From Hippasteria phrygiana (Eukaryota > Echinodermata > Asteroidea > Valvatida > Goniasteridae), in contig JAZGUH010000564.1 of assembly GCA_037893225.1 (NCBI GenBank), forward strand, positions 1,054,001 through 1,118,000: a DNA stretch of 64,000 nucleotides, written 5' to 3'. The position numbers were made by a program, and so were the translations under genes. The notes beneath the pieces were generated by a model. The model had not been told where the DNA came from. It worked only from the letters and a program-made list of their open reading frames with translations, and did no database searches. Shown one piece after another: positions 11,170 to 63,645 of the stretch (the first letter of the stretch is position 1; the number at the start of each line of letters is the position of its first letter).

Positions 11170-11590
11170 GCGTCGTCGGCCGTTGCGTCGTCGTCGGCCG
11201 TTGCGTCGTCGTCGGCCGTTGCGTCGTCGTCGGCCGTTGCGTCGTCGTCGGCCGTTGCGTCGTCGTCGGCCGTTGCGTCGTCGTCGGCCGTTGCGTCGTC
11301 GTCGGCCGTTGCGTCGTCGTCGGCCGTTGCGTCGTCGTCGGCCGTTGCGTCGTCGTCGGCCGTTGCGTCGTCGGCCGTGGCGTCGTCGGCCGTGGCGTCG
11401 TCGGCCGTGGCGTCGTCGGCCGTGGCGTCGTCGGCCGTGGCGTCGTCGGCCGTGGCGTCGTCGGCCGTGGCGTCGTCGGCCGTGGCGTCGTCGGCCGTGG
11501 CGTCGTCGGCCGTGGCGTCGTCGGCCGTGGCGTCGTCGGCCGTGGCGTCGTCGGCCGTGGCGTCGTCGGCCGTGGCGTCGTCGGCCGTGG
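11170..11590. repeat. GC-rich minisatellite switching from 18-bp to 15-bp units
   Basis: The left half repeats the 18-mer TCGTCGTCGGCCGTTGCG about 10 times. From about 11364 the unit becomes the 15-mer TCGTCGGCCGTGGCG, repeated about 15 times. Both periods are multiples of three, so long open frames run through it (VASSSA/VASSA on plus, ATADD on minus). No flanking domain supports a protein, so I treat it as a minisatellite. Confidence 0.85.
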
Positions 11591-21967: not shown

Positions 21968-22454
21968 CTCAGATGAGGAGAGTGAGCACCCAACCCCTAA
22001 TGACAGGAAATACCTGGTTTTTGGAGTAAACCTTCTGGAACTTTTCAAAAAACTGCCCGAGGTGTGCTGGTGAATCAAGAAAGAAGTTGTCACGACCACA
22101 GGGAGGAACTCTTGTTGAGGTGTACCAGGCCTGCAAGGTGAGAGCCTGTGGGTATACCCGGAGATGGAGAAGTCAGCCAATGATTGGAAACATCTCGGCA
22201 GGGAATCTTATGCTGTCTTCAGTGTTGTTGCTTTCAGGAACCAGTGTCCTCAAGCTTCTCGGTGCCCTAGCCTCCATCAACATGGCCGTCTTCTCTTATA
22301 ACCCTTTCGCTACCAGGAGAAATAATGCACTCATTACCTCAATACCAGTCCCCTTTGTAAAAATTTCATTGTATAGCGCCCTCGTAATTCAGCGAGGAGA
22401 AAGGCCGATAAGATCTAACACAGTATGTGAACAGGATAGACCCGCCAATCTCCC

Positions 22455-22488
<34 letters not shown>

Positions 22489-22904
22489 TTCAAGGTTGTG
22501 TGAAATTGGGTGTGCAGGCAAACCGGCTAATTCTCCCACCCCTATCAATATTGCATTGGGGGGGGGGGGAGGGGGATGAGTGGGAAGGGAGATAAGGGAG
22601 GGGAGTGGGAGGGGAAGGGAGGATGAGGGAGGGTATTGGGGGGGGGGGGGGGAGGGCGGTGAGGGGGAGGAGGTGGAGAAACAATTATTTATATTCACAT
22701 AACTGTGATCTGGAATGTTTCAAACTACGGTCGCGGTGCACGATCGACTTTTTGTCGATAGGGGGCGCTATTCACATTTTCGCCAAATACAACATGAGCT
22801 TGGTGCCAAAAGGAGCCACGGTAAGGAAGTGGCGTGGAACTTTGGTGCCAAGCGGAGCCCATGGTAGTGAAAGGGTTATAATAAAAAGTTTTTAGGTCCT
22901 GTGA

Positions 22905-23023
22905 GGGCGCTGTAACGACGCGATTTTCTGGGCTCCAACTAGCTAGGAAAGTGACGTTTGTTGAACTAGCTTGGGACTTTTATCTAGCAACTCCATTTTG
23001 GAAATATGCACCTGTATTTATTT
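22905..23023 (+). repeat. 119-bp repeat R upstream of Rep (also at 25462-25580)
   Basis: GGGCGCTGTAACGAC to CTGTATTTATTT, containing CAACTAGCTAGGAAAGTGAC and TTTATCTAGCAACTCCATTT. The same sequence lies in direct orientation at 32942-33058, on the other side of the Rep genes. Confidence 0.7.
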
Positions 23024-23346
23024 GCGCTTTAGAATGTTTAAACTTTCTTGAGTTATCTGGACATTCACTAACCATTTTCTCGGAGCGCAAAATAATTACC
23101 TTGCTGCCAAACATCTACTTTGAACTGTGTCGTTTGTTAGATTTTTTTGGTGGTTTTTTTCTTCGTTTTAGTTTAATTATGGGGCCGGAGTGGAGCTGGA
23201 TATAATAATAACTTTTTGCAAGTGTTTCGGTACTTTGTAATGGCTAGTCAGTTTCGTCATGGTTTCGTTAATCTTTAAGCACAACAAGTTTTACAACCGT
23301 GTTAACGTTTCTTAAAAAACACAGTGCGCAGGGGGGGGGGGGGGGA

Positions 23347-23379
<33 letters not shown>

Positions 23380-23613
23380 AAGCTTTAAAATGGCACGTAC
23401 TGGCAATCTAAGGGGGGGGGGGGGGGATGCTACTGCCCGGTGGTGTACATGTGCGCACGTACGTACCCGACAAATTTGACTGTCCGAATTTACATCCTCC
23501 AGAGCCACGCATGTGCAGTAAGCACAATTTTCAAAGGTCAAAAAACTTATGCAGTCACGCCACACAGACTATTATGCAAGATGGTCAACTTGGACGGTTC
23601 ACCATCTGGTTTG

Positions 23614-23620
23614 TATAAAA
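23614..23620 (+). promoter_or_regulatory. TATA box upstream of Rep copy 1
   Basis: TATAAAA, 234 bases before the first in-frame ATG of Rep (23854). The same word lies at the same distance before Rep copy 2. A promoter role is inferred from sequence and position only. Confidence 0.35.
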
Positions 23621-23853
23621 GATAAGAACAGTAATATCTCTTTATTCGGTTTACCATGGTCAAATGGTCAACCGTGTGTATATATTACATCACATACGCG
23701 GTGGGTATACCGGGGTAAGCCGTGGGTGGTTTGTCATAGGGGGCGCTGTTTGTACGTGTTACATTATAGAAACGCGGGGCTTGTGGCGTAAACACCACTG
23801 ACTTGACTGATGAGGGGCGTGACACCGTAGTTATTGTTGATTTTCATGTCGAT

Positions 23854-25182
23854 ATGTCTCGTTTACTTGGTGTTCGTCAAGTACGCCAGGTTTATTTAAT
23901 TACATACAGCAGGGCAAATATCCGAGTCGGTATTATTGAAGGTTGTCAAGATGTTGCTGACAAAATTGTGTCTACATTTGATATGTGTGGAACTGCACAA
24001 GTCATGCACTGGGCATGCTCTCGAGAATTTCATGCCGATGGAGGTACGCACTACCATATGTCGATCAAATTGGACAGAACTCAGCGTTGGTTACAAGTTA
24101 GAAACCATTTACAACATCATCATGGGATGGCTGTACATTTCTCCTCAAACCATCACAATTATTACAGTGCCTGGAGGTATGTGACCAAAACTGACAGAAA
24201 TTATATCCAATCCAGGGGACATCCTGATTTAACAGATTCAGTACCACCAAAGACTGACGCTGCTTCTCAAATTCTCACTTGGAACTCTCAGTCTCAGCCT
24301 CAGCCCGAGTCTCAGTCTCAGTCCGAGTCTCAGTCTCAGTCTCAGCCCGAGTTTCCGTCTAAGTCACAGCCCGAGTTTCCGTCTCAGTCACAGCCCAAGT
24401 TTCCGTCTCGGTCAAAGCCCGAGTTTAGGTCTCGGTCACAAATCCCGGATTCTGCGATTCCCCCCAACAGTCCCACACATCAACGGATGCGTACACGTTC
24501 CAGACTAACTCCCTATGACGTGTCGGAAATTGTGGTATCCAAAGGACTGAAGACACGCCTCCAATTGATGGCCTTTGTTTTTGGAGTAAACCTTCTGGAA
24601 CTTTTCAAAAACTGCCCGAGGTGTGCTGGTGAATCAAGAAAGAAGTTGTCACGACCACAGGGAGGAACTCTTGTTGAGGTGTACCAGGCCTGCAAGGTGA
24701 GAGCCTGTGGGTATACCCGGAGATGGAGAAGTCAGCCAATGATTGGAAACATCTCGGCAGGGAATCTTATGCTGTCTTCAGTGTTGTTGCTTTCAGGAAC
24801 CAGTGTCCTCAAGCTTCTCGGTGCCCTAGCCTCCATCAACATGGCCGTCTTCTCTTATAACCCTTTCGCTACCAGGAGAAATAATGCACTCATTACCTCA
24901 ATACCAGTCCCCTTTGTAAAAATTTCATTGTATAGCGCCCTCGTAATTCAGCGAGGAGAAAGGCCGATAAGATCTAACACAGTATGTGAACAGGATAGAC
25001 CCGCCAATCTCCCACCCCCCCCCCCCCCCCCCCCCCCCCCCCGTTCAAGGTTGTGTGAAATTGGGTGTGCAGGCAAACCGGCTAATTCTCCCACCCCTAT
25101 CAATATTGCATTGGGGGGGGGGGGGAGGGGGATGAGTGGGAAGGGAGATAAGGGAGGGGAGTGGGAGGGGAAGGGAGGATGA
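23854..25182 (+). CDS. Rep HUH endonuclease, copy 1, fused to transposase sequence
   Basis: The first in-frame ATG is at 23854, although the frame is open from 23803. Motif I is VYLITYSRAN (residues 13-22). The HUH motif is GGTHYHMSIKL, with His66 and His68. The single-tyrosine motif is WRYVTKTD, with Tyr109 and Lys112. This is the Rep layout for nicking DNA by a covalent Tyr-DNA link. A Ser/Gln/Pro-rich linker (about residues 145-210) follows. After LQLMAF the frame crosses the duplication junction at 24577/24578 into the copied transposase exon (FGVNLLELFKNCPRCAG, a CxxC segment) and ends in poly-C and G-rich sequence. It therefore lacks the helicase half. The fusion is a by-product of the duplication; whether it is expressed is unknown. 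Confidence 0.7.
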   Translation: MSRLLGVRQVRQVYLITYSRANIRVGIIEGCQDVADKIVSTFDMCGTAQVMHWACSREFHADGGTHYHMSIKLDRTQRWLQVRNHLQHHHGMAVHFSSNHHNYYSAWRYVTKTDRNYIQSRGHPDLTDSVPPKTDAASQILTWNSQSQPQPESQSQSESQSQSQPEFPSKSQPEFPSQSQPKFPSRSKPEFRSRSQIPDSAIPPNSPTHQRMRTRSRLTPYDVSEIVVSKGLKTRLQLMAFVFGVNLLELFKNCPRCAGESRKKLSRPQGGTLVEVYQACKVRACGYTRRWRSQPMIGNISAGNLMLSSVLLLSGTSVLKLLGALASINMAVFSYNPFATRRNNALITSIPVPFVKISLYSALVIQRGERPIRSNTVCEQDRPANLPPPPPPPPPPRSRLCEIGCAGKPANSPTPINIALGGGGRGMSGKGDKGGEWEGKGG

Positions 25183-25907
25183 GGGAGGGGTATTGGGGGG
25201 GGGGGGGGAGGGGCGGTGAGGGGGAGGAGGTGGAGAAACAATTATTTATATTCACATAACTGTGATCTGGAATGTTTCAAACTACGGTCGCGGTGCACGA
25301 TCGACTTTTTGTCGATAGGGGGCGCTATTCACATTTTCGCCAAATACAACATGAGCTTGGTGCCAAAAGGAGCCACGGTAAGGAAGTGGCGTGGAACTTT
25401 GGTGCCAAGCGGAGCCCATGGTAGTGAAAGGGTTATAATAAAAAGTTTTTAGGTCCTGTGAGGGCGCTGTAACGACGCGATTTTCTGGGCTCCAACTAGC
25501 TAGGAAAGTGACGTTTGTTGAACTAGCTTGGGACTTTTATCTAGCAACTCCATTTTGGAAATATGCACCTGTATTTATTTGCGCTTTAGAATGTTTAAAC
25601 TTTCTTGAGTTATCTGGACATTCACTAACCATTTTCTCGGAGCGCAAAATAATTACCTTGCTGCCAAACATCTACTTTGAACTGTGTCGTTTGTTAGATT
25701 TTTTTGGTGGTTTTTTCTTCGTTTTAGTTTAATTATGGGGCCGGAGTGGAGCTGGATATAATAATAACTTTTTGCAAGTGTTTCGGTACTTTGTAATGGC
25801 TAGTCAGTTTCGTCATGGTTTCGTTAATCTTTAAGCACAACAAGTTTTACAACCGTGTTAACGTTTCTTAAAAAACACAGTGCGCAGGGGGGGGGGGGGG
25901 GGGGGGA

Positions 25908-25940
<33 letters not shown>

Positions 25941-27139
25941 AAGCTTTAAAATGGCACGTACTGGCAATCTAAGGGGGGGGGGGGGGGGGATGCTACTGCC
26001 CGGTGGTGTACATGTGCGCACGTACGTACCCGACAAATTTGACTGTCCGAATTTACATCCTCCAGAGCCACGCATGTGCAGTAAGCACAATTTTCAAAGG
26101 TCAAAAAACTTATGCAGTCACGCCACACAGACTATTATGCAAGATGGTCAACTTGGACGGTTCACCATCTGGTTTGTATAAAAGATAAGAACAGTAATAT
26201 CTCTTTATTCGGTTTACCATGGTCAAATGGTCAACCGTGTGTATATATTACATCACATACGCGGTGGGTATACCGGGGTAAGCCGTGGGTGGTTTGTCAT
26301 AGGGGGCGCTGTTTGTACGTGTTACATTATAGAAACGCGGGGCTTGTGGCGTAAACACCACTGACTTGACTGATGAGGGGCGTGACACCGTAGTTATTGT
26401 TGATTTTCATGTCGATATGTCTCGTTTACTTGGTGTTCGTCAAGTACGCCAGGTTTATTTAATTACATACAGCAGGGCAAATATCCGAGTCGGTATTATT
26501 GAAGGTTGTCAAGATGTTGCTGACAAAATTGTGTCTACATTTGATATGTGTGGAACTGCACAAGTCATGCACTGGGCATGCTCTCGAGAATTTCATGCCG
26601 ATGGAGGTACGCACTACCATATGTCGATCAAATTGGACAGAACTCAGCGTTGGTTACAAGTTAGAAACCATTTACAACATCATCATGGGATGGCTGTACA
26701 TTTCTCCTCAAACCATCACAATTATTACAGTGCCTGGAGGTATGTGACCAAAACTGACAGAAATTATATCCAATCCAGGGGACATCCTGATTTAACAGAT
26801 TCAGTACCACCAAAGACTGACGCTGCTTCTCAAATTCTCACTTGGAACTCTCAGTCTCAGCCTCAGCCCGAGTCTCAGTCTCAGTCCGAGTCTCAGTCTC
26901 AGTCTCAGCCCGAGTTTCCGTCTAAGTCACAGCCCGAGTTTCCGTCTCAGTCACAGCCCAAGTTTCCGTCTCGGTCAAAGCCCGAGTTTAGGTCTCGGTC
27001 ACAAATCCCGGATTCTGCGATTCCCCCAACAGTCCCACACATCAACGGATGCGTACACGTTCCAGACTAACTCCCTATGACGTGTCGGAAATTGTGGTAT
27101 CCAAAGGACTGAAGACACGCCTCCAATTGATGGCCTTTG
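24578..27139 (+). repeat. tandem duplication, copy 2 (2.56 kb)
   Basis: Starts at the junction GGCCTTTG/TTTTTGGAG, which joins Rep to transposase sequence, and ends where Rep exon 1 continues normally into GCTGATCAGCAGAAGG. Only this copy is connected to the helicase exon. Relative to copy 1 it has one A fewer near 24605, which restores the transposase frame, and one C fewer near 27025, which breaks Rep. Confidence 0.9.
26177..26183 (+). promoter_or_regulatory. TATA box upstream of Rep copy 2
   Basis: TATAAAA, identical in context to the copy at 23614 and 234 bases before the ATG at 26417. Confidence 0.35.
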
Positions 27140-27225
27140 CTGATCAGCAGAAGGAGGAGGGGAAAACGGACATCGCTCAGTTCATTATCAACAAGGGCAA
27201 AAGGGTTGTACACGAGACAATCCAG

Positions 27226-28084
27226 GTATACGTAAGCTGAAGTCTATATGTGAAACACACACAGTAACTATTAACTAAAACTAAGACAAGCCCGAAATTG
27301 CTGCCCAAAATTCCATGTGGGTCGTAGGGGTGTTGCTACGCACCAGTTGGCGATAGGGTTCCATTACATGAAAATATGCAGAAAATGGCACAAAATCAGA
27401 CCAAACTTAGAACGCCACATGGTGATGCTGAGGGGTAGAGTGGCAATGTGTTTTTCACTGGAAATTACAGATTAAGACCTCTTGGACATGTTTCTTTTCA
27501 ATTTTACCAGGGTTGACCGAATGAATGTGTTTTTATATTCCCCTCCCCCAAACCACCCCTCAAATGATCGTCAATCTCTGGGCCCAGGTCTAAATGTAGC
27601 CTCCCATCTCTATGCCAAAGAGACCCACCTGTTGGTTTTTTTTTGCAAAACCAAATTTGAGGTAATTGAGCTGTAGAGATATGTAAACTTATGTGAATTA
27701 TCTTGCCCTCGGGCCTGATATAGGTCATTAGGCTAGGCTAACCGTTCAGTTCAGTTGTAGGGGATCTCCTCCCCCCCCCCCCCCCCCTTCCAAATATATT
27801 TTTAGAGAAACCTAAAAATATTTAGAGAAACCTACTATTTTATGCTAATGAGACCGTGTTGAGTCAAACCACAATCTACTAGTCTAAGGCTAATGAAAGT
27901 TTATTGTTTCCCGTTACTTGACCGACTCCTGTGTTCGTGCCGGACCCCAATCAGTCTTTGCACAAAAAATCATTAGTTTCTATTATAGTAGTTTTCACCC
28001 CAACTTTAAGTAATAGAACGTCTTCAAATCTGAAGTTTATTGCTAATCCTGCACACATTATCTTTTTTGAAATATTATTTGCAG
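27226..28084 (+). other. intron of the Rep gene
   Basis: GTATAC donor and TTTGCAG acceptor. The 859 bases contain a C run at about 27770-27787 and a duplicated TTTAGAGAAACCTA word at about 27800-27835. A spliced Rep argues that this copy has been shaped as a nuclear gene rather than being a raw viral insertion. Confidence 0.6.
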
Positions 28085-28756
28085 GAGGCTTGGGAACTCT
28101 TTGAATCCCGTGAGACGCTGAGAAGGTCGACCATGAGCAGACTTGACATCCTGCAGCAGGCTGCCCAAGCTGCATGCAAGTGCAATGGAGTATGGCTACA
28201 ATGCGCTACAGAAATACTGGTGAATAATGGGATTCAAATAACTGCGTTTGCAAGAAGCATTTATTTATTGTTGTCTGAGGGAAGGGGTAAATATAGAAAT
28301 CTAATGATAACGGGCCCGGCCAATACTGGAAAGACGTTTATGTTAAATCCCCTAAATGACATATTCCGCACATTCACAAACCCTGCAACGGGTACTTTTG
28401 CATGGGTAGGGGCAGAGTTAAGCGAGGTCATATTTTTGAATGATTTCAGGTGGACACCTAAAATCATACCCTGGAATGACATGCTTCTTCTATTGGAAGG
28501 TCAAACGGTTCATTTGCCAGCACCTAAAACTCACTATGCAAGAGATATTGCTTTCGATACAGACAGCCCAATATTCTGTACTGGAAAACTGCCTTTAGTC
28601 TACATAAGTAGTGGGTCTATTGATGAACGCGAGACAGAGATGATGTCTGTCAGATGGAATATGTACTCATTTTCTCATCAGATTCCACAAGCCCAACAGC
28701 AAGCAGTCACCCCATGTCCGTACTGTTTTTCGCATTTAGTACTTGACAATAGATAA
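28085..28756 (+). CDS. SF3 helicase exon of Rep (C-terminal half)
   Basis: About 223 codons, intact to the stop at 28754-28756. The Walker A motif is GPANTGKT (exon residues 77-84), and a Walker B-like strand is EVIFLND (114-120). A motif C-like segment is DTDSPIFCTGK (158-168), and a conserved Arg follows in EMMSVRW. The C-terminus has CPYC (211-214), a possible zinc knuckle. The GP..TGKT form and the short spacing fit superfamily 3 helicases, the hexameric 3'-5' unwinding motors found in Rep/NS1 proteins. An upstream helical segment (DILQQAAQAACKCNGVWLQC) precedes it. Unlike exon 1, this exon exists once in the window. Confidence 0.75.
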   Translation, partial: EAWELFESRETLRRSTMSRLDILQQAAQAACKCNGVWLQCATEILVNNGIQITAFARSIYLLLSEGRGKYRNLMITGPANTGKTFMLNPLNDIFRTFTNPATGTFAWVGAELSEVIFLNDFRWTPKIIPWNDMLLLLEGQTVHLPAPKTHYARDIAFDTDSPIFCTGKLPLVYISSGSIDERETEMMSVRWNMYSFSHQIPQAQQQAVTPCPYCFSHLVLDNR

Positions 28757-29892
28757 GAAGGTGGGCGTTGCGCAAATTCTTCTCTTTGCACTATACAATG
28801 TACGTAGTGATTTAAAGATAGAAACAGTCATTCCAGCGACCACAACATGTTGCCTTGACTAAATATGGCACCAGTGCAGATTTTAAAGCATCAAACCCTT
28901 TTTTTTATTGAACTCTTGCTTTTCATATGGTGATTATTTCTTTGGGGTGTAATTTAGGAGGCATTTGTGTTACCTGTAAGGCTGCAAGTAGCGTTGACGA
29001 CCGTGGCTGCTAATAACACTACAAGCTGTGCAAGTCACTCGCTGTGAAGAATGACATCAGTCCAGTGCTGTACTTTAACGCAAACCCATTCAGGTATTCT
29101 CTAAGCACCCTGCTGAAACCAACCAAATCTGCAAACTGTTCGAAAACCCTCCTCGACCCCTAGGACCCCTCAACTTATGCTTATAAAAAAACAGTCTGTA
29201 CATTTACTGAGTAATCTTGCGTTTGTGTGTGCTTCGTTTATGAATGTAAGTCGAGGGGTCGTGGGGGTCGAGGGGAGGTTTTTAGAACAACCCCTGAACT
29301 GGACATGAAAGTACAGCGCAGGACACATTCTTGACAGCCACATTCGTGCAACGCTATTTGGAGCGACATGTTTGGCATATTATAATTATTACAGTATGTC
29401 AAATCAGTACTATAAGGTCCTTATAGAAATTCTGCACCATCCATGCAGTGCATTTTATACAGTGTTGTAACCAATCAGGATGTGAATTTACGTTTAATTT
29501 GATAAATGTTTAGCAAAACTTTCCCGTAGCGTTTAAACGTTTAGTCAACAATTGCAAAAAGGCTGCCGCCAGTCGCATTGTGTAGGATGTCGGAGAGGTG
29601 CTGTCCGCGTCGAGCATTGATCTTGTCCCAGCGGCGTATTGAAAACATCAAACACAAACAATTGTTTACACTGTGTAGTACTAAAGGTGTTTGTATTTCT
29701 TTGTAAATTAAATACGTCAAAGATTCTGGATTCTTTGTGAAGAAAACTGGAATGTAGATTGCGTGCATACAAAATCCCATTTTTAAAATTGAGTTGCGTT
29801 TAAACGTTTGGGAAAATATCTAAACTGATTTTTTTATTTTTTATAGTTTAAACGTTTAAACGTCCCATTCTTAGTAACCGAGTCATTTTTTA
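28757..29892. other. no gene; inverted repeat and GTTTAAAC words
   Basis: An inverted repeat pairs CCTCGACCCCTAGGACCCCT (from about 29152) with a GTCGAGGGG/GGGGTCGAGGGG stretch at 29251-29278. Several GTTTAAACGTTTA words lie at 29530-29865. No coding sequence recognised. Confidence 0.45.
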
Positions 29893-29983
29893 TCAAGTCA
29901 AGTCAAGGTACAATTAAAATTTTCCAAAGTCAAGACCCAAGTCACATTTTCCCAAGTCAAGTCCCGAGTCATTTTCTTTACCA

Positions 29984-30350
29984 GAGTCGAGTCGAGTCGA
30001 GTCGAGTCGAGTCGAGTCGAGTCGAGTCGAGTCGAGTCGAGTCGAGTCGAGTCGAGTCGAGTCGAGTCGAGTCGAGTCGAGTCGAGTCGAGTCGAGTCGA
30101 GTCGAGTCGAGTCGAGTCGAGTCGAGTCGAGTCGAGTCGAGTCGAGTCGAGTCGAGTCGAGTCGAGTCGAGTCGAGTCGAGTCGAGTCGAGTCGAGTCGA
30201 GTCGAGTCGAGTCGAGTCGAGTCGAGTCGAGTCGAGTCGAGTCGAGTCGAGTCGAGTCGAGTCGAGTCGAGTCGAGTCGAGTCGAGTCGAGTCGAGTCGA
30301 GTCGAGTCGAGTCGAGCCGAGCCGAGCCGAGCCGAGCCGAGCCGAGCCGA
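29984..30350. repeat. (GAGTC)n pentanucleotide satellite
   Basis: About 66 near-perfect copies of GAGTC, changing to GAGCC over the last seven units. It is flanked on the left by degenerate AAGTC words (29893-29975). Open frames through it (DSTRL on minus) are repeat artefacts. Confidence 0.95.
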
Positions 30351-30380
30351 GTTGAGACAGCTGACACAGATGAGACACTG

Positions 30381-30614
30381 GTGAGACATCCGACGCTGGT
30401 GAGACATCCGTCGCTGGTGAGACATCCGTCGCTGGTGAGACATCCGTCGCTGGTGAGACATCCGTCGCTGGTGAGACATCCGTCGCTGGTGAGACATCCG
30501 TCGCTGGTGAGACATCCGTCGCTGGTGAGACATCCGTCGCTGGTGAGACATCCGTCGCTGGTGAGACATCCGTCGCTGGTGAGACATTTGTCGCTGGTGA
30601 GACATCCGTCGCTG
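30381..30614. repeat. 18-bp minisatellite, 13 units
   Basis: The unit is GTGAGACATCCGTCGCTG, with isolated variants (GACGCTG in unit 1, TTTGTCGC in unit 12). The array length is exactly 13 x 18 = 234. It lies between the pentamer array and the decayed Rep copy and stays in frame with that Rep remnant on the minus strand. Confidence 0.9.
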
Positions 30615-30659
30615 CTGGCACAGCTGACACAGCTGGACTCGACTTGACTCGGCAAAAAA

Positions 30660-31183
30660 GGCTGAGACTTAGACTCGTCTTCAGTCCTTTGGATACCACA
30701 ATTTCTGATACATCATAGGGAGTTAGTCTTGAACGCGTACGCGGGGTACGCATCCGTTGATGTGTGGGACTGTTTGGGGGAATCACAGAATCAGGGATCT
30801 GTGACTGAGACACAAACTCGGGCTGAGACTGAGAGTTCCAAGTGAGAATTTGAGAAGCAGCGTCAGTCTTTGGTGCTACTGAATCTGTTAAATCAGGATG
30901 CCCCCCTGGATTTGATATAATTTCTGTCAGTTTGGGTCACATACCTCCAGGCACTGTAATAATTGTGATGATTTGTAAATGGTTTCTAACTTGTAACCAA
31001 CGCAGAGTTCTGTCCAATTTGATCCACACATATCAAATGCACTACACAATTTTGTCGGCACGATCTTGACGACATTCAATGATACCGACTCGGGTATTTG
31101 CCCTGCTGTATGTAATTAAATAAATGTGGTGTACTTGACACCCCCCCCCCCCCCCCCCCCCCATCAGTCAAGTCAGTGGTGTC
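30660..31183 (-). pseudogene. decayed inverted third copy of Rep exon 1
   Basis: Read on the minus strand, it carries the CACCACTGACTTGACTGATG leader, a C/G tract in place of the ATG region, then the GTACACCA... Rep coding stretch, the linker and SRLTPYDVSEIVVSKGLKT. The region equivalent to 23817-23878, which holds the start codon, is missing and replaced by a homopolymer. The linker is shorter than in the intact copies. Substitutions and small indels are frequent, so it is much older than the tandem pair. A further 65-bp duplicate of the YVTK-region sequence lies at 31190-31256. Confidence 0.75.
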
Positions 31184-31734
31184 CAGAAGCATTGAGATCA
31201 GTTTCTGTCAGCTTTGGTCGCATACCTCCACACACTGTAATAATTGTGATGATTTTAATTAGGGATGTTCATTTTTGAAGAATTGAGTATTCGATTATCC
31301 GAGACCGGGTTTGACCGAATATTCAAATATCCGACATCGCCAATGAAGTCTTTCAGGTGTCTGCTGCAACTGCATGCCGCGTCGGTAAAAACGTGCATGC
31401 AAAGGCAAAGCACGCCGGTGTTTTACATGTGGCGATCAATATTAGAGACCACCCGATGGACATTTGGCATTGTATCAAGATCATTACGAGTGAGTATGTG
31501 TAACGTTCTAATAAAAAAAAAACTCCAGCCCGAGTTTTTGCAATAATTATTTTAGAAATGTCAAGGGTTTTACGGTCGGGAACCATAAACCTATGTTCAC
31601 AAGAAATGTTGCATTTGACATTGCTAAGTGCCGTAACTTTTCCATTAAAATAGCATCAGTCGTATCTGGACGTGCATATAGAATTTTTTTGAATATTTCA
31701 ACCGGCAAAAAGCAATTCGAATATTCAATTGACA

Positions 31735-32200
31735 GTGTTGTAACCAAGTCATGTTTTCTCAAGTCAAATCAAGTCACAATTCAAATGTTCACAAGTCCAG
31801 TCCCAAGTCCAATGTTTTCAAGTCAACAAGTACCAAGTCTCAAGTCAATTGTTGCACATAGTAAAGTCAAATTCCAATGACAAATGACTTTTGGCTGGCA
31901 CGTATGCACTGTACAAAATCAACCATGCGTCCCCGGTCTTGACGATTCTCCATGCAGTCGTCCAGTGTTGCAGCCTCGCATACGTACTGGACACCCAGCT
32001 CGCTAGGCGCTGTAGGCTTGGCATTTTTTGTCAACTGGTATGTGCATATAGGCCCAAAAGTTTTGTTTGTTTTAACAAAAGTGTTGATGTCAGCAAGTGA
32101 AATTTAAATTTATTCAAATCAAAGTCACAAGTCATGTTTTTTTCAAGTCGAGTCAAGTGAAGTCCCAAGTCATTTTTTTTGTCAAGTGAAGTCTCGAGTC
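31735..32200. repeat. degenerate CAAGTC-rich sequence
   Basis: From CAGTGTTGTAACCAAGTC (about 31733) to 31870, and again at 32110-32200, the words CAAGTC, AAGTCCCAAGTC and GAGTC recur irregularly. The same type flanks the perfect GAGTC array at 29.9 kb. Likely an old element whose internal words seeded the satellite. Confidence 0.5.
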
Positions 32201-32369
32201 TTTTATAAGCATTTTGAGTCGCTGCTGTTTGTGATATGAATGTAAAATACACGGATAAGTTGTTCATTTTAGCCAGTTCATTGTCGGACACCTACATAAT
32301 GTGTAAGCTCAATCTCATTGCTAAGAAAAGCAATACCGCCGTGTATATGTATTTTGGTAATACATGTAT

Positions 32370-32701
32370 TATATGATTTTTACTAAATACTTTGTGGTAC
32401 ATTTGCTTTTTTTGTTGTTAAATGACTGTTTTTTATTCCGTTGTCAGTCTGTCCATTTCCCCGTTTGTCAATCTGTTGTGCTGTTCCATATTGAATGTCG
32501 TGCTGTCTGCTCGTCTGTCCGTTTTGCTGTTTGTCGTGTCTATTTTTGGTTAATAAATGACCATCAATTGATGTACTCAGGAGATTGTGGTTTAAAACTG
32601 CTGCCATGCCAAACTTTAAAAATTATTTCTGTGCAAATTGTATTTGTTCATAGTATTTTTGATGAATTTGCTGAATAAACCTGAATAATAATAATAATAA
32701 T
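32370..32701 (+). repeat. possible LINE 3' end
   Basis: The stretch ends TGAATAAACCTGAATAATAATAATAATAA, a microsatellite-type tail like those at the 3' ends of CR1/L2 LINEs. It is preceded by a TGTC-rich noncoding sequence. No RT sequence is attached. Confidence 0.3.
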
Positions 32702-32941
32702 ACATAGTAACTGACCCATCAATTTATGTACTCAGGAGATTGTGGTTAAATACTGTGCCTCTCCCCTCTTTAATTCCCCTACACACCCCCCGCCCCTTTC
32801 AATGTTGTTGGGATTGAAGTGATTAACGTTAACATATTGCAGTCATTGAGTTTATTACTGCACAAAAGTACCCCCCCCTGCCCCCCCCCCCCCTCCCCTT
32901 CACAGAAATTAAAACAATGGGCCATGTGCAAGGTCGCTTGG

Positions 32942-33058
32942 GGGCGCTGTAACGACCATTTCCTGGGCTGCAACTAGCTAGAAAAGTGACGTTTGTTGAA
33001 CTAGCTTGGGATGCGTACTTTTATCTAGCAACTCCATTTTGGAAATATGTATTTATTT
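32942..33058 (+). repeat. second side of direct repeat R
   Basis: Matches 22905-23023 and 25462-25580 in direct orientation over about 117 bp, with few substitutions, one 6-base insertion (GCGTAC region) and a 3-base gap. Similarity ends on both sides, at GGGCGCTG and TATTTATTT. Confidence 0.7.
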
Positions 33059-33968
33059 GAGTTGCAAGGGTGTACATGTGTGTAAATGCGTGTATTATCT
33101 TCGAAATATCGTTGAAACAGCGCCCTCGCGCGTTCGAGCAAAGTCCATTTGCCTACTGTCTCGTATAATTCGACATTCTTTAATTACCAACGAAGGTATC
33201 CTTCATATACATGTACATGTATTTAGCATTTCTTTAATTATGAATTAAACTGCTGCAAACTGCTTATATACTGACTGAATGGACCTGAAATATACAAATA
33301 CAAAAATTTGCTGGCCTAACGTTTCGAACTTTAGCAAGTTTGACACATTAGGCCAGCTAATTATAAAGTTCCATGATGATTTTTGAGTAATTTCCAAGGA
33401 TTTATGGGTAACCCCCAAATGGCCCCAATGTATGTAAAAATAAATTCCTAAAATACATGTTTGAGTAAATAGCAATAATATTAGCCTCGGTCAAGCCGTT
33501 TGACTATCAGATGAACAGTGGCTTCACTATGCATGAAGCTTGAATGGTGACCTCACACGGCTACATGTAGGCTACAATATGCAAATCAGTTGAATCCGAT
33601 CTGATATCTTAGAACAACCGTGGGGTCACTGTTTGTGCTTCGAACAGTACTGAGGTTGTATATGCCGGCAATCGTGGACCTAGGACAAAAGAATTCGGGC
33701 GTAAACAAAGGGTTCCACGTTTGACCTAACGTCCACGATTGAAAATCGTGTACAAAACCAATGGGAGGCCTTCCGAAAAAGTTAGAGTATAAACAAAAGA
33801 GGAACAATGGGAGGTCCACGATTGCACCCGTTTACATGACTGCGTGCCTGTACGAGTGTGAGTGCATGGCGCACGGCTGCTGTCGTTAGCCGGCCACCAA
33901 TCGTTGGACAATTGTCCTGTGTTTTATAATCCTAATCAATCGAGTTCACTGTGTAAAATTAACCCCAG
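33059..33968. other. end of the large intron, no gene
   Basis: Contains a 12-bp inverted repeat, CAATCGTGGACC (33669-33680) and GGTCCACGATTG (33813-33824), and ends at an AG acceptor (33967-33968) for the second transposase exon. Confidence 0.45.
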
Positions 33969-40446: not shown

Positions 40447-42518
40447 GTGTCAACAATCAATTATGTACTGAACTCTTATGATGTTGATGAAGCGTGGTGC
40501 AAATGGCACTCCATATTTATGAGTATTATTAACTTTCATGCGCCAATCAAAACTAAACGTATTCGGGGTGCATCTTTACCTTGGCTCGATTGCGAAATTC
40601 TTAAACTTATGAGACAGCGGGATCGTGCACACAAAATCGCAAAACGCTCAGGCTCACAGATCGATTGGGACTCTTAGCTGCGGAACAATGTAACTAATAA
40701 AATCCGCACTAAGAACAGTGAATACTATACGTCAGTCATAGAAGAAAATAAAAGCCATTCATCTATGCTATGGGAAAAAAAAACTAAAGGAGGTACTTCC
40801 TAGGAACCAGAAAATTGCTCCAAATTCTGTCACTTCCCCAAATGGAGAAAATATTGACGATCCCACCGACATTGCTGATACATTAAATGAACACTTTTCT
40901 ACAATAGGAAAACGTACAGCTGGAAATTGCCCATCGCGCGAACTTGAAAACAATGATACCTACACGCCTCTATCGTCGATTCTCTGGATGAACTTGAAGA
41001 ATGCACTGTACCTAATATTACAGAAGAGTTCGTTCAAAAGCAAATATCATCAATGTCGGTTGGGAAAGCAACAGGTCCGGATGGCATCAGTGTTAAAATG
41101 ATTAAAATTGCTTCCCCTTATATTACTAAATTTTTAACATATTTTTAATCTCTCCCTAAGATGCGAGCAATACCCTAAAGATTGGTAACACCAATTCACA
41201 AGGGAGGAGATAAATGTAGTATAACAGGTAATTTTCGGCCTATTTCTATACTGCCAATTATCTCTAAGATTCTAGAAAGATGAGTGTACTCGGCAGTATA
41301 TAGCTACCTCGATGATAACAATTTGATACCTAGTTGCCAATCGGGATTTAGACCCTTGTACTCGACTGAAAGCACTCTACACGATTTAACAAGTGTTTTG
41401 AGGCTATGGAGCAAGGTGAAGTTACAGGTAGCGTGTTCATTGATCTCAGTAAAGCTTTTGATTGTGTGGATCATGTAATCCTACTAGGCAAATTGAAGAA
41501 GCTGAATGTGTCATCTTCTGTAAATAATTGGTTTAAGTCGTACCGAGGCGGTCGTAGTCAGTCTGTAAATATTAAGGGCACAATATCGAAGGTCCTGCCC
41601 ATAGACATAGGCGTTTCACAAGGGTCGATCTTAGGGCCACTTTTATTCATTGTTTATAGTAGTGATTTTCCATCTTGTATACCCAAAAATTGCAACGTAT
41701 GTATGTATGCAGATGACTCCACGTTAACGTGTAGCTCCTCTAGTATTAACGAAATAGAAAGGAACTTGAATGTAGCCCTTGCTAGTATTCACAACTGGTG
41801 CCTAAGAAACAAACTAGCATTAAATACTAACAAAACCAAATGTATGCTTATTGGTTCAAGGCAGAAAATATCCAACGTCAAGCTGAACGTGTGCATTACT
41901 GATAAGGTTATCGAAAAAGTGAAATCTTGTAAATGCTTGGGTGTAGTTGATGAAACATTGAGTTGGGGTACACATGGTGAATACGTAAGGAAGACTGTTT
42001 CGTCTAAATTGGGTGTGTTAAACAGAATTCGTGATTACGTTCCCCAAAGCAGCCTGCACACACTCTTTGTAAGTTTAGTTATGCCATCTTTAGAGTATTG
42101 CTGTACGGTGTGGGAAGGTACATATCTCACGACAATACCCTCAACAAATGTCTCAAAAGAGCCGCACGGATAATCCTTAAATGTTCCTCCCTCACCCCCT
42201 CAGCTGATATGTTTGCCAGACTGAATTGGATTCCTTTTAATGAAAGAGTTCAGTCCAAAAAGGCTATCTTTGTTTTCAAAAGCCTTAACAAAATGACTCC
42301 TTTGTACATGACAAATCTGTTCACACCACTTACAGTGATTCGTTAAACACGACAATCGACCCAAATGGCACTGAAAGTTCCTTTCGCCAAAAAGGAATGC
42401 TACGTGACAAGTTTCGCTGTGAGTGGTGCCAGTATATGAAATATTCTGCCTGAACAAATGAGAACCATAAACTCCTTAAGTACATTTAAATCGGAGCTAC
42501 GTAAAGCCATCTATCAGT
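40447..42518 (+). pseudogene. CR1/L2-like LINE ORF2 (reverse transcriptase), 5'-truncated
   Basis: The sequence starts in the endonuclease-RT linker (INFHAPIKTKRIRGASLPWL). It continues through several frames with VGKATGPDGISVKMIKIA, SITGNFRPISILPIISKI, LIPSCQSGFRPLYSTEST, VFIDLSKAFDCVDH and ISVSQGSILGPLLF-type RT blocks. The catalytic block is VCMYADDSTLTC. After the thumb, the C-terminal segment IFVFKSLNKMTPLYM and INSLSTFKSELRKAIYQ ends at about 42518. At least four frame changes and stops (near 40675, 40800, 41280 and 42150) make it inactive. The ORF1 at 17.7 kb is a separate copy. Confidence 0.8.
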
Positions 42519-46800: not shown

Positions 46801-47032
46801 CAATACATTTTCAAAGTGAACAAAGAAACTGGCAGGAGCGGGTTTATGACTTCCGACTAGCGCCCACCCGAACAAAGATACTGACAATTTGGAGATAGCC
46901 AACAGAGGGCAAGATAGCTAACAGAGGGCAAGATAGCTCAGTTGATAGAGCGCGGGTACGGTAACCCGGATGTCGCAGGTTCGAATCCCGCTCCTGTCAG
47001 TTTCTTTGTTCACTTTAAAAATAGATTATACT
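46760..47032. mobile_element. inverted-repeat element carrying a tRNA-like segment
   Basis: The left arm (about 46801-46842, CAAAGTGAACAAAGAAACTG then GCAGGAGCGGG) is the inverted copy of the right arm (about 46985-47026). A relative with the same outer sequence (GGGAAACTGACTAGGTAAAT on this left side) lies at 59862-60235. AACAGAGGGCAAGATAGCT is duplicated at the centre (about 46902 and 46921). Confidence 0.65.
46927..46998 (+). tRNA. tRNA-like sequence (probable pseudo-tRNA)
   Basis: A 72-base cloverleaf can be drawn. The acceptor GGCAAGA/TCCTGTC has one mismatch and one G-T pair. The D arm is GCTC/GAGC with an A box (TAGCTCAGTTGATAGAGC). The middle stem is CGGGT/ACCCG with a 6-base loop, and the T arm holds the B box GGTTCGAATCC. 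The loop of six bases lacks the normal anticodon context, so it is unlikely to be a working tRNA. It probably derives from a tRNA and could still bind Pol III factors. Confidence 0.4.
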
Positions 47033-48744: not shown

Positions 48745-51700
48745 TCAACAATAAGCATTCAACAAAATTGATTTATAGCTACGCTTAAAAGTTAGAAGGT
48801 TTGTACATTTTTTTAAAGAATCGTTTAGAGAGTTCCATAATTTAGGTCCCTCATATCTAATAGTTTTTTGGGCAAAGGAAGTACAAGTTAATGGGGGATG
48901 AAAATGAAGAGCTTGCCGAGTAAAATGAGTATGAACTTCAAAATTCCGAATGAAAATTGAATAATAGAAGATGGCAACATATTGGAAATAGATTGATACA
49001 TGAGGCAACCAAGTTGGTGATAATAAATATCCTAAATTTTCAAGGTCTTGTGTTTAGAAAACAAGGGATCAGTGTGTGCATTAAATTCGGTAAAATTAAT
49101 TATCCGAAGAGCACGTTTCTGTAAACGGAGCAACCTATTACGACACCACCAGAGTATTATACAGAAAAAAATAGAATTTTAGGGGGAACAAAATGTTTGA
49201 TTCTATTAATGACACCAATATTTCTACTAATAATTTTACATAAATAATCAATATGATTTCCCCAAGATAATCTACAGTCAATTACTAAGCCAAGAAACTT
49301 CAGGCAATCCGTTTTCTCAATACATACGTTGCTAATCAAGACCTCACCTGGAAGTTCACTGGCAGAGTTGCTGAACAGCATATAATTGGTTTTATTAAGA
49401 TTTAATGAAAGTTTATTGACCCTGAACCAATTAGAAACTGAGATAAGCTCATGATTAACTATTTCAACGAGGGTATTAATATTTCTATGGGAGATAAATA
49501 GATTAGAGTCATCAGCAAACAGAATAAATGAAAGCACATCAGACGATTTAGTAAAGTCATTATTATAAATCAAGAACAGCAACGGACCTAGAATTGACCC
49601 CTGAGGCACACCATAACCCAAATTTCTAGATATCGAATTAGACGCCCCAACAGAAACATATTGACTTCATCAGAAAGATAACTTCGGAACCACTCTTGGG
49701 AAATTCCACGAATGCCATAATGAGAAAGCTTATACAATAATATCTCATGATCAATTGTATCAAAGGCTTTTAAAAGGTCAAGAAATATTCCCAGAGTGTG
49801 TTCATAGTTATCCCTAGCAATAGAAACTTTATCAATAAAATCAAGAAGTGCATGAGTAGTTGAATGTTTACTACGAAATCCATATTGGGAACTTGTCAAT
49901 ATTTTAAATTTGTTTAAGAAATTGACAATACGAGTATACACACATTTTTCGAATATTTTAGACAAACAGAATAATATAGAGATAGGTCTCAATTATTAAC
50001 ACTGTTAGAATCACCACTTTTAAAATCTGGTATAACTTTAGCAGTTTTTAATTGACTAGGCACAATACCTGTTACAAAAGTATTGATAATGTATGCAAGT
50101 GGCTTATAAATGGCAGAGATGGAATTCTTAATAACCGAAATGCTAATAGAGTCGTGTCCAACACTTTTTTATTATGTACATTTTTAACAATGTCTGATAC
50201 CTCATTCTCATCGATAGGAGTAAAGAAAAATGTATTTGGATTTCGATGACCAAGAAAATCAATAAAGGAATCCTGGTTAAGAGGAATTTTTCTGGCAAGA
50301 TCTGGACCTATGTTGACGAAATAATCATTAAAATGATTAGCAATTTGGGTGGGATTATTAACTAGCTTCCCCTCATGCATAATGCTACTTACAGTATGAG
50401 AAGACATTTTGTTGTTTAAAATTGAGTTAATTACCTTCCATGTATTACATATATTATTCTTTTCCTTATCAAGTTGATAAACAAAATAATCTTTTTTAGA
50501 AGTACGCAATAAACTGATGAGAATATTGTTGTATCTGGTGTACTTGGTTTTGCGTAAATTAGTGGGATGATCTAAGTAGCGACGATAAAGTTTATTTTTC
50601 TTATTAATGGATTTAAGGAGTGATTTGGTTATCCATGGTGCATCAGGTTTAAATTTAGATTTAACTCTATTATGAGAAATAAGAGGAATATTTGTATCAC
50701 ACACAAAAATAAAACGATCAACAACATTATTAAGAGCCTGTTCAGGGTTATTGCATGTATAAATATCTGCCCAATCAGCAGAATGAAGATCAGCATTACG
50801 CCTTTGAAGATTATCACTTGTAAAATTACGGGCGTGCGTAGAAATAAAATTGTTATTAACGGGCTTTAAACTTACAAAACTGGATAATCATAAAAACTGG
50901 TAGGTGGTCTGAAATATCTGATTTGGGAGACGGTAAAATGTTCGTAAAAAAATTATCAATAAGTGATGCAGAGGTATCGGTTATCCTAGTTGGTTTATCA
51001 ATTGTGGGAAGAAATGAATAAGAAGTAACAAGATCCATGAGGGCCTGACAGTTGGGATTATTATGATTAAGTAAATTAATATTGAAGTCACCAGTAATAC
51101 AAAAAACTGTTTTATCAGAAGTCATTTGAATTAATTGATTCTGGAAAATGTGTAAAAACTCAATATGACTTGCACTTGGAGGTTTTGTACATGACTCCTG
51201 CAATTATGTCCTTAGCTTTTGGAACCGATATTTCAATAAACAAAGACTCAAGTGCACCATTAGAACATTTAAGGTCCTCCCGAATTTTAAAATTCAACTC
51301 AAATCAATATAAAGTGCAACAGAAAGTGCAATAACTGAAAACCTAAAATTGACAGTCTAAAAAACTTTTAAACTGATCGAAATGTCTTTGAAGACTCCTT
51401 ATATTTAGATGAAGTATTGAAAACCCGTCTGTATTATAGATATTTGGAAACTGCTGTGCTGAATAGTACTGCGAATTATTCAACGAATTAAAAGGCTTAT
51501 TAGGATCAACAAAAAATGGTCAACATTACTTTCGGAGTCCTGAGTGGAGCAACTGCTATTGGAGGTGCTAGTATCAGAATCAGAGTTACTATCCTTATTC
51601 ATGTCAAAAATTGTCGAATAAAGATTATCATTGTCCAAGAAATTGAATGGAAAGACATTACTAAGGCATATATGGCATATCCAGGGGTTATTGTCTCCGG

Positions 51701-63182: not shown

Positions 63183-63440
63183 CGAATCGTTCGTTCGTTC
63201 GTTCGTTCGTTCGTTCGTTCGTTCGTTCGTTCGTTCGTTCGTTCGTTCGTTCGTTCGTTCGTTCGTTCGTTCGTTCGTTCGTTCGTTCGTTCGTTCGTTC
63301 GTTCGTTCGTTCGTTCGTTCGTTCGTTCGTTCGTTCGTTCGTTCGTTCGTTCGTTCGTTCGTTCGTTCGTTCGTTCGTTCGTTCGTTCGTTCGTTCGTTC
63401 GTTCGTTCGTTCGTTCGTTCGTTCGTTCGTTCGTTCGTTC
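63183..63440. repeat. (TTCG)n tetranucleotide satellite
   Basis: About 64 perfect copies of TTCG. All six frames appear open (RSFV on plus, NERT on minus), which is an artefact of the short period. Confidence 0.95.
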
Positions 63441-63645
63441 GGCAGGCAGTTCGGCAGGCAGGCAGTTCGGCAGTTCGGCAGTTCGGCAGTTCGGCAGTTC
63501 GGCAGTTCGGCAGTTCGGCAGTTCGGCAGTTCGGCAGTTCGGCAGTTCGGCCGGCAGGCCGGCAGGCCGGCAGGCCGGCAGGCCGGCAGGCCGGCAGGCC
63601 GGCAGGCCGGCAGGCCGGCAGGCCGGCAGGCCGGCAGGCCGGCAG
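63441..63645. repeat. satellite succession GCAGTTCG then GGCCGGCA
   Basis: The TTCG array changes into GGCAGTTC octamers (about 63463-63550) and then GGCCGGCA octamers (about 63549-63645). The GGCAGGCAGGCAG word seen before the TTCG array (about 63100) also occurs at the first switch. Confidence 0.9.

Follow-up and report, generated by a model that had tools for sequence, protein, structure and literature searches.

A spliced HUH-SF3 Rep gene in Hippasteria phrygiana and the probable mobile replicon that carries it

Introduction

How does a gene built like the replication protein of a rolling-circle replicon come to lie in an animal genome, and what carries it there? This question is raised by a stretch of 64,000 nucleotides from the asteroid Hippasteria phrygiana (assembly GCA_037893225.1, contig JAZGUH010000564.1, positions 1,054,001 to 1,118,000), called the window here, with coordinates counted from its first nucleotide. 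At 26417-28756 the window carries a Rep gene of two exons, an HUH nuclease of the YxxK type followed by an SF3 helicase. An earlier note on this DNA had seen in it a eukaryotic Rep-type mobile element or a domesticated viral gene, split into two halves by a tandem duplication. We conclude that a mobile replicon with a spliced HUH-SF3 Rep has probably left one damaged copy in the window. It belongs to a group of elements, present in several lineages in this genome, which in at least two of these pair Rep with a DDE transposase and which probably multiply by rolling circle and re-insert as concatemers.

The Rep gene

The HUH motif, the YVTK motif and the SF3 helicase with GPANTGKT were all found where the earlier note had placed them, and its phase-consistent intron border at 27225/28085 was recovered as well. 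GGTHYHMSIKL and YVTK occur in both copies of the local duplication, in the open reading frames (ORFs) 23770-25182 (470 codons) and 26333-27070 (245 codons), which hold the same HUH domain. The helicase motif GPANTGKT lies within ORF 28034-28756. Position 27225 ends exon 1 and 28085 opens exon 2, with a GT..AG intron of 859 bp in phase 0 between them (a slash marks an edge here and below).

26417-27225, + strand: Rep exon 1 (copy B of the duplication), with HUH domain, YVTK and a Ser/Gln-rich linker that has a frame shift near 27022; the start is a guess, the first ATG ahead of the HUH domain
27226-28084, + strand: Rep intron, CAG/GTATAC...TTTGCAG/GAG, from predicted splice sites
28085-28756, + strand: Rep exon 2, SF3 helicase, from ORF, profile match and genome matches

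When taken alone, the window exons match Pfam REP_ORF2-G2P (E=0.011), Parvo_NS1 (0.011) and PPV_E1_C (0.013), all under the Pfam cut-offs. Among solved structures searched by sequence, exon 1 alone matched none and exon 2 gave one irrelevant match (E 0.3), while the family profile found papillomavirus E1 at only E=0.64. A PHROGs search yielded no useful match.

The intron position and its GT/AG sites are common to three Rep families, which are the window family (window, C598 and C14; C, L and P numbers are our own handles), C125 and C361. Between these families the nonsynonymous divergence (dN) of Rep is 0.27-0.41 and the synonymous divergence (dS) is saturated, so that Rep has been under purifying selection between families. 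That families so far diverged share the intron indicates that it is old and has been retained, splicing itself being read from the sequence. Both Rep exons are open at C125, C598, C361 and C14.

Relatives and predicted fold

Searches with the HUH part found 42 proteins at E<=1e-3 (among 94 candidates), of which 22 were inspected, and the helicase part of a relative, P0042, found at least 133 proteins (among 2158 candidates). Alignments took in 14, 33 and 40 proteins. Relatives with both exons in order, on which the earlier note had made its reading depend, exist inside and outside this genome: both exons are found in three of its own families, and outside relatives include proteins with the HUH and SF3 domains in one uninterrupted frame. 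The HUH and SF3 domains occur together in 39 of the 40 aligned relatives. Pairwise distances for one domain correlate with those for the other (r 0.64), a value that none of 2000 permutations reached in a Mantel test that left out 1 of the 40. Across 14 aligned relatives the two histidines of HxH and the tyrosine of YxxK are invariant (14/14), and the lysine is found in 13.

Named relatives of the P0042 helicase part include, among the matches listed, Actinostola and Oculina patagonica, which we take to be a sea anemone and a coral. Many helicase-part relatives lie on contigs about 3.5-4.8 kb long, which looks like the assembly of a unit-length circle or of a collapsed array. Three scans of viral contigs, which rest on a few peptide patterns, gave no relatives, and neither a phage search nor a scan of prokaryote genomes built on few peptide patterns gave any.

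The fold modelled for a relative fits the HUH plus SF3 architecture, and the SF3-type helicase appears in both profiles and model. For the helicase half of this modelled relative the closest of the entries listed is Rep68 of adeno-associated virus (AAV), and for the nuclease half the best single-domain entries, among the families listed, are geminivirus and vientovirus Reps. No Replitron or Helitron entry stands in these structure lists, which carries no weight either way. With HxH, YxxK and an SF3 fold with Walker A, the protein belongs with the CRESS/parvovirus-type Reps (HUH-Y1 plus SF3).

Copies and arrays across the genome

Searches of the H. phrygiana genome (944 Mb, 1285 contigs) gave at least 151 matches to the helicase exon and at least 171 to the HUH exon, fragments included. 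At other loci the units lie head to tail at even spacing (13.5 kb at C598, 14.1 kb at C203, 5.96 kb at C125, 8.2-8.5 kb at C14, 6.44 kb at C361 and 5.8-6.0 kb at C367). Units within an array are 98.9-100% alike over blocks of at least 800 bases, and most of the outer ends examined are unit ends. The earlier note's reading as a eukaryotic Rep-type mobile element is supported, with many copies, a spliced gene for both domains, relatives that have the two exons in order and a matching fold modelled for one of them. Its alternative of a domesticated viral gene is not supported, the copies being many, near-identical and often arrayed.

The structure of the arrays is clearest in the C125 family, whose loci read [R-U]n-R, where U is the gene-bearing part of the unit and R a repeat. 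Six C125 units are parted by one 173-bp R each, and R also stands at the outer ends of the family, as CT/R at 7 of 7 distinct left and R/AG at 8 of 8 distinct right ends. In this count two C307 loci that share flanks were taken once; L048 gave no match and L052 lies inside an array. The ends of R read CT/ACAAT...ATTGT/AG, which fits a TA duplication, yet a plain cut in CT/AG gives the same letters, and no site empty of the element was seen. R is an imperfect palindrome (fold z -6.44, one family). For R, 40 of 838 candidates were scored; of 14 further R copies examined, 11 are solo with CT/AG edges and 3 adjoin U on one side. Inner R copies (L026 486-666) are flanked as TCAG[R]CTGA, an inverted extension found neither at the outer ends nor in any of the 11 solo copies.

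In the window family the corresponding repeat, R', is about 570-590 bp long with inverted ends CCCTTTCGCTACC, and its left-end word occurs at at least 128 places in the genome (up to 3 mismatches). At C364 and C939 the element is bounded by R' on either side. The two outer copies at each locus are free of substitutions and differ in length, by 9 and 3 bases, against 6-13 substitutions in the comparisons made between loci or with solo copies; L062 yielded no R'. Solo R' copies are flanked by ATAA on both sides at C103 and C46 and by ATAA and TTAA at C113 and C153, and the edges of the window copy read TATAA. For comparison, piggyBac elements have a TTAA target and ends of the form CCC..GGG.

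Two other origins of this arrangement were considered and rejected. Two independent insertions of miniature inverted-repeat transposable elements would not account for R-U-R, since the outer R' copies of C364, and likewise those of C939, match without any substitution and the inner C125 R flanks are unlike solo flanks. A circle integrating into an older solo R' would give a chimeric R'.

Array C598 starts at R' in a 239-bp satellite. This satellite borders arrays C598 and C14 (L017 1-6880, L031 5168-10000), and letters that look satellite-like by eye flank the solo R' at C103 and the edge of array C203.

The window copy and its duplication

The window copy of the element (about 24861-33163) is single and damaged and starts at R' (24861; duplicated at 22302). 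Its parts, apart from the Rep gene, are as follows.

24861-25432, + strand: R' in copy B, the left end of the element
29984-30614: short tandem repeats inside the unit
30677-31139, - strand: degenerate inverted fragment of HUH exon 1, present too in C598 and C14 units
33053-33163, + strand: right end of U, ...CTACTGTCTCG, shared with C89 and C845
33164-33168, no strand: TATAA at the right edge, with further TATAA at 22297-22301 and 24856-24860

The right end of C671 falls outside the stretch examined, and the stretches L078 and L079 enter none of the results. In array C14 a single TATAA stands between the right end and the next left end. The edges of the window copy, like those of C361 (CACCCA), would fit short direct terminal repeats with no inverted ones; C125 has inverted ends. 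No DDE_3 match was found on the window's contig, and the piggyBac search listed no close match in the window copy.

The left part of the element lies in a duplicated block (about 22018-24577 and 24578-27139) that takes in about 280 bp of flank.

22018-24577, + strand: duplicate copy A, made up of flank (about 280 bp), R' as the left repeat and an HUH exon truncated in its 3' part
22302-22875, + strand: the R' of copy A, with CCCTTTCGCTACC...GGTAGTGAAAGGG as its inverted ends; its end is placed by the offset between copies
23770-25182, + strand: ORF of copy A that encodes the HUH domain but no helicase and extends into the duplicated flank; Pfam REP_ORF2-G2P E=0.047, under cut-off
24578-27139, + strand: duplicate copy B, continuous with the rest of the element

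An alignment of 2553 bases shows 9 gap runs between the copies and, in a run of G, 2 mismatches side by side. All gaps sit in homopolymer or short-repeat runs, the one that causes the linker frameshift included, save a 2-base gap where the block has its edge. Copies that differ in little but the length of such runs point to a duplication that is either very recent or an artefact of the assembly, and a sequencing error could account for the frameshift. The duplication, the frameshift and the helicase-less copy described by the earlier note are there in the assembled sequence, but any meaning of the two half-genes is poorly supported, with copies that differ only by run lengths and the G-run. 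A functional split of the window gene was rejected on the same grounds.

Transposase genes in the units

The C125 unit contains a Tc1/IS630-type DDE_3 transposase of 389 codons (E=8.5e-13) on the strand opposite Rep, which matches Sleeping Beauty and Mos1 in the PDB. Nearby Rep exons are the rule for this gene, as 31 of the 39 DDE matches listed start within 6 kb of one. Diverged transposases (73-75% identity) at C2, C939, C318, C57 and C70 adjoin Reps that are 51-60% identical to the window exons, and U carries a DDE transposase in at least two lineages. Between the C125 and C318 transposases dN is 0.154 and dS 1.565 over 362 codons, which indicates purifying selection on the DDE gene. Together with the diverged pairs at several loci, this indicates that Rep and DDE have stayed together through long divergence.

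The window family has a different gene, a piggyBac transposase (E 2.5e-83). All 17 matches of 93-100% identity, among the best 77 of 815 candidates scored, lie near Rep, at a distance of 0.65-8.7 kb. The block that holds it (L017 7649 to L018 4028) has TA at both edges and contains Rep exon and intron sequence in scrambled pieces.

Proposed mechanism and its alternatives

The life cycle that we consider most likely is as follows. A circle of R plus U would form, Rep would nick it at or near the unit junction, and the helicase of Rep would drive rolling-circle synthesis. Each circle would have one R, which would be copied twice when copying passes its start, giving matching R at both ends and a single R inside. 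The product would be head-to-tail concatemers that start and end with R. The DDE transposase would then act on the inverted ends of the outermost R and insert the whole concatemer at TA within CTAG, leaving arrays whose outer ends are unit ends. The window lineage may instead rely on strand transfer by Rep or on a helper, as suggested by the lack of a DDE_3 match in the window copy, a piggyBac-like left R', a fixed and unlike right end, and TATAA at both edges.

A broader proposal, which we make tentatively, is that these elements form a distinct class in animals with two engines. Rep would multiply the unit to concatemers, and a DDE transposase, acquired at least twice from superfamilies that are unrelated (Tc1/IS630 and piggyBac), would insert them via R, seeding tandem arrays and satellite-linked blocks.

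Several observations weigh against rolling-circle multiplication with insertion by DDE. No circle, nick site or transcript was seen, and repeats at both ends would allow arrays by unequal crossing-over too. Among young Rep copies changes are too sparse for selection to be demonstrated, and in several pairs nonsynonymous changes exceed synonymous ones. Eight of the 39 DDE matches, all partial and at 5 loci, have no listed Rep nearby. In C598-type units the block around the piggyBac gene, about 6.4 kb long, resembles a later insertion flanked by TA; this weakens the case for counting the gene among those of the element, where it may be a passenger. R words and R' occur as many solo copies. At C364 the R' copies differ in length and the middle one differs from both outer ones at 2 positions, and the flanking 4-mers at C364 and C939 are not exact matches. 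Array C14 stops within the Rep gene, beside the 239-bp satellite, and the stretch examined at C77 did not show the outer left end. No R was seen at C361, which shares the 6-bp CACCCA at its ends and unit junction, and C83 and C354 hold a single unit between flanks where C361 holds two. Finally, the inner C125 R copies are flanked as CAG[R]CTG and not by TA, so R was not simply inserted by its own transposase at inner sites. These CAG and CTG edges are explained by neither the rolling-circle nor the crossing-over model.

Part of this evidence suits the main rival, an ordinary DDE transposon with Rep as a passenger or accessory, in which recombination between flanking R made the arrays and there was no rolling circle. 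The R copies are directly repeated and near-identical, one unit (C83, C354) and two units (C361) stand between the same flanks, and 11 of the 14 further R copies are solo at CT/AG, as recombination would leave them. What makes us think this less likely is the conservation of Rep between families with saturated synonymous sites, the intron kept in three of them, and the tandem units of C361, where only a 6-bp word is common to the ends. Endogenous remains of a parvovirus-like virus, with head-to-tail arrays, palindromic ends and a lost capsid gene, are a still less probable source. Adeno-associated proviruses do integrate as head-to-tail arrays with palindromic ends, and the palindromic R, the arrays and a helicase half nearest AAV Rep68 among the entries listed are all in keeping with this. 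The nuclease half points elsewhere, however, with its geminivirus and vientovirus matches among the families listed. The intron is common to diverged families, units of two lineages carry a DDE transposase, the three pattern-based scans of viral contigs gave no relatives, and six further unit ORFs, a part of all unit ORFs, gave no Pfam capsid match. An acorn worm parvovirus-like repeat described in PMC3198968 has an ORF with a coat domain, which is a further point for a viral source. Hardly any credence can be given to a host gene domesticated from a viral Rep: frames are open at several loci and constrained between families, as it would require, but the many near-identical copies are often arrayed and have element-like ends.

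Comparison with known systems

The replicon proposed here shares features with several known elements. Helitrons have an HUH nuclease with two tyrosines (Y2) and an SF1 helicase and use a rolling-circle mode; they share a nuclease-helicase protein with our element, whose Rep differs in its SF3 helicase and single YxxK. The HUH protein of Replitrons has a single tyrosine and, to our knowledge, no SF3 helicase, and the present Rep is set apart by its SF3 helicase (exon seen here, fold in a relative). Replitrons, for which green algae and non-seed plants are named in the passages concerned (PMC10741241), share an HUH protein with our element, and their short direct terminal repeats may have a counterpart in the edges of C361 (CACCCA) and of the window copy (TATAA). 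The C125 unit is like Tc1/mariner-IS630 elements in its DDE_3 match, its similarity to Sleeping Beauty and Mos1 and the TA within CTAG at its ends, and adds to them a Rep gene and one palindromic R per junction.

The closest precedent for the gene pair comes from the truffle Tuber melanosporum (Liu et al. 2011, PMC3198968), where a repeated element, bounded by inverted ends, likewise unites a Rep-like gene with transposase ORFs. As described there, its Rep is geminivirus-like, its host is a fungus, its terminal inverted repeats are 37 bp long and no target-site duplication is obvious; the word 'tandem' is absent from the main text. Our element differs in its parvovirus/papillomavirus-type helicase half, spliced Rep, CTAG target and [R-U]n-R arrays. 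The same paper describes parvovirus-like repeats in invertebrates, namely the acorn worm element, DENSOV_HM of Hydra and PIVE of a planarian (PMC3198968). By description, these are repetitive elements with genes of the Parvo_NS1 or PPV_E1_C type; section 8 of the paper gives no transposase or arrays for the three, and a coat-domain ORF for the acorn worm element. Both an element with Rep and transposase and parvovirus-like repeats in invertebrates are therefore already known from this source. Teratorn, a fusion of piggyBac with a herpesvirus of about 180 kb, is far larger than the 6-14 kb Rep unit, but the proposed principle, that transposon ends make rolling-circle concatemers insertable, is the same in the account of PMC10175614. 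In a mostly title-level literature search we found no account of a spliced HUH-SF3 Rep paired with a Tc1/IS630 transposase in such an element or of [R-U]n-R arrays with Rep and DDE.

If our proposal is true, it joins rolling-circle replicons and cut-and-paste transposons, which are usually kept apart, and offers a concrete route from an element to a multi-kilobase tandem array. It would also make the entry and persistence of replicons like single-stranded DNA viruses in animal genomes testable at defined junctions.

Other features of the window

A reverse transcriptase fragment lies at 41370-42173 on the + strand (RVT_1, E 6.9e-23). Further putative fragments of this kind lie at 49157-50887 on the - strand, where 49157-49666 is alike by eye and 50072-50887 is without an RVT match. 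A tRNA-like match at 46927-46999 (+ strand, 41.7 bits) has no clear anticodon and may be a tRNA-derived repeat. Short tandem repeats at 11170-11590, 29984-30614 and 63187-63645 are long open in several frames on both strands.

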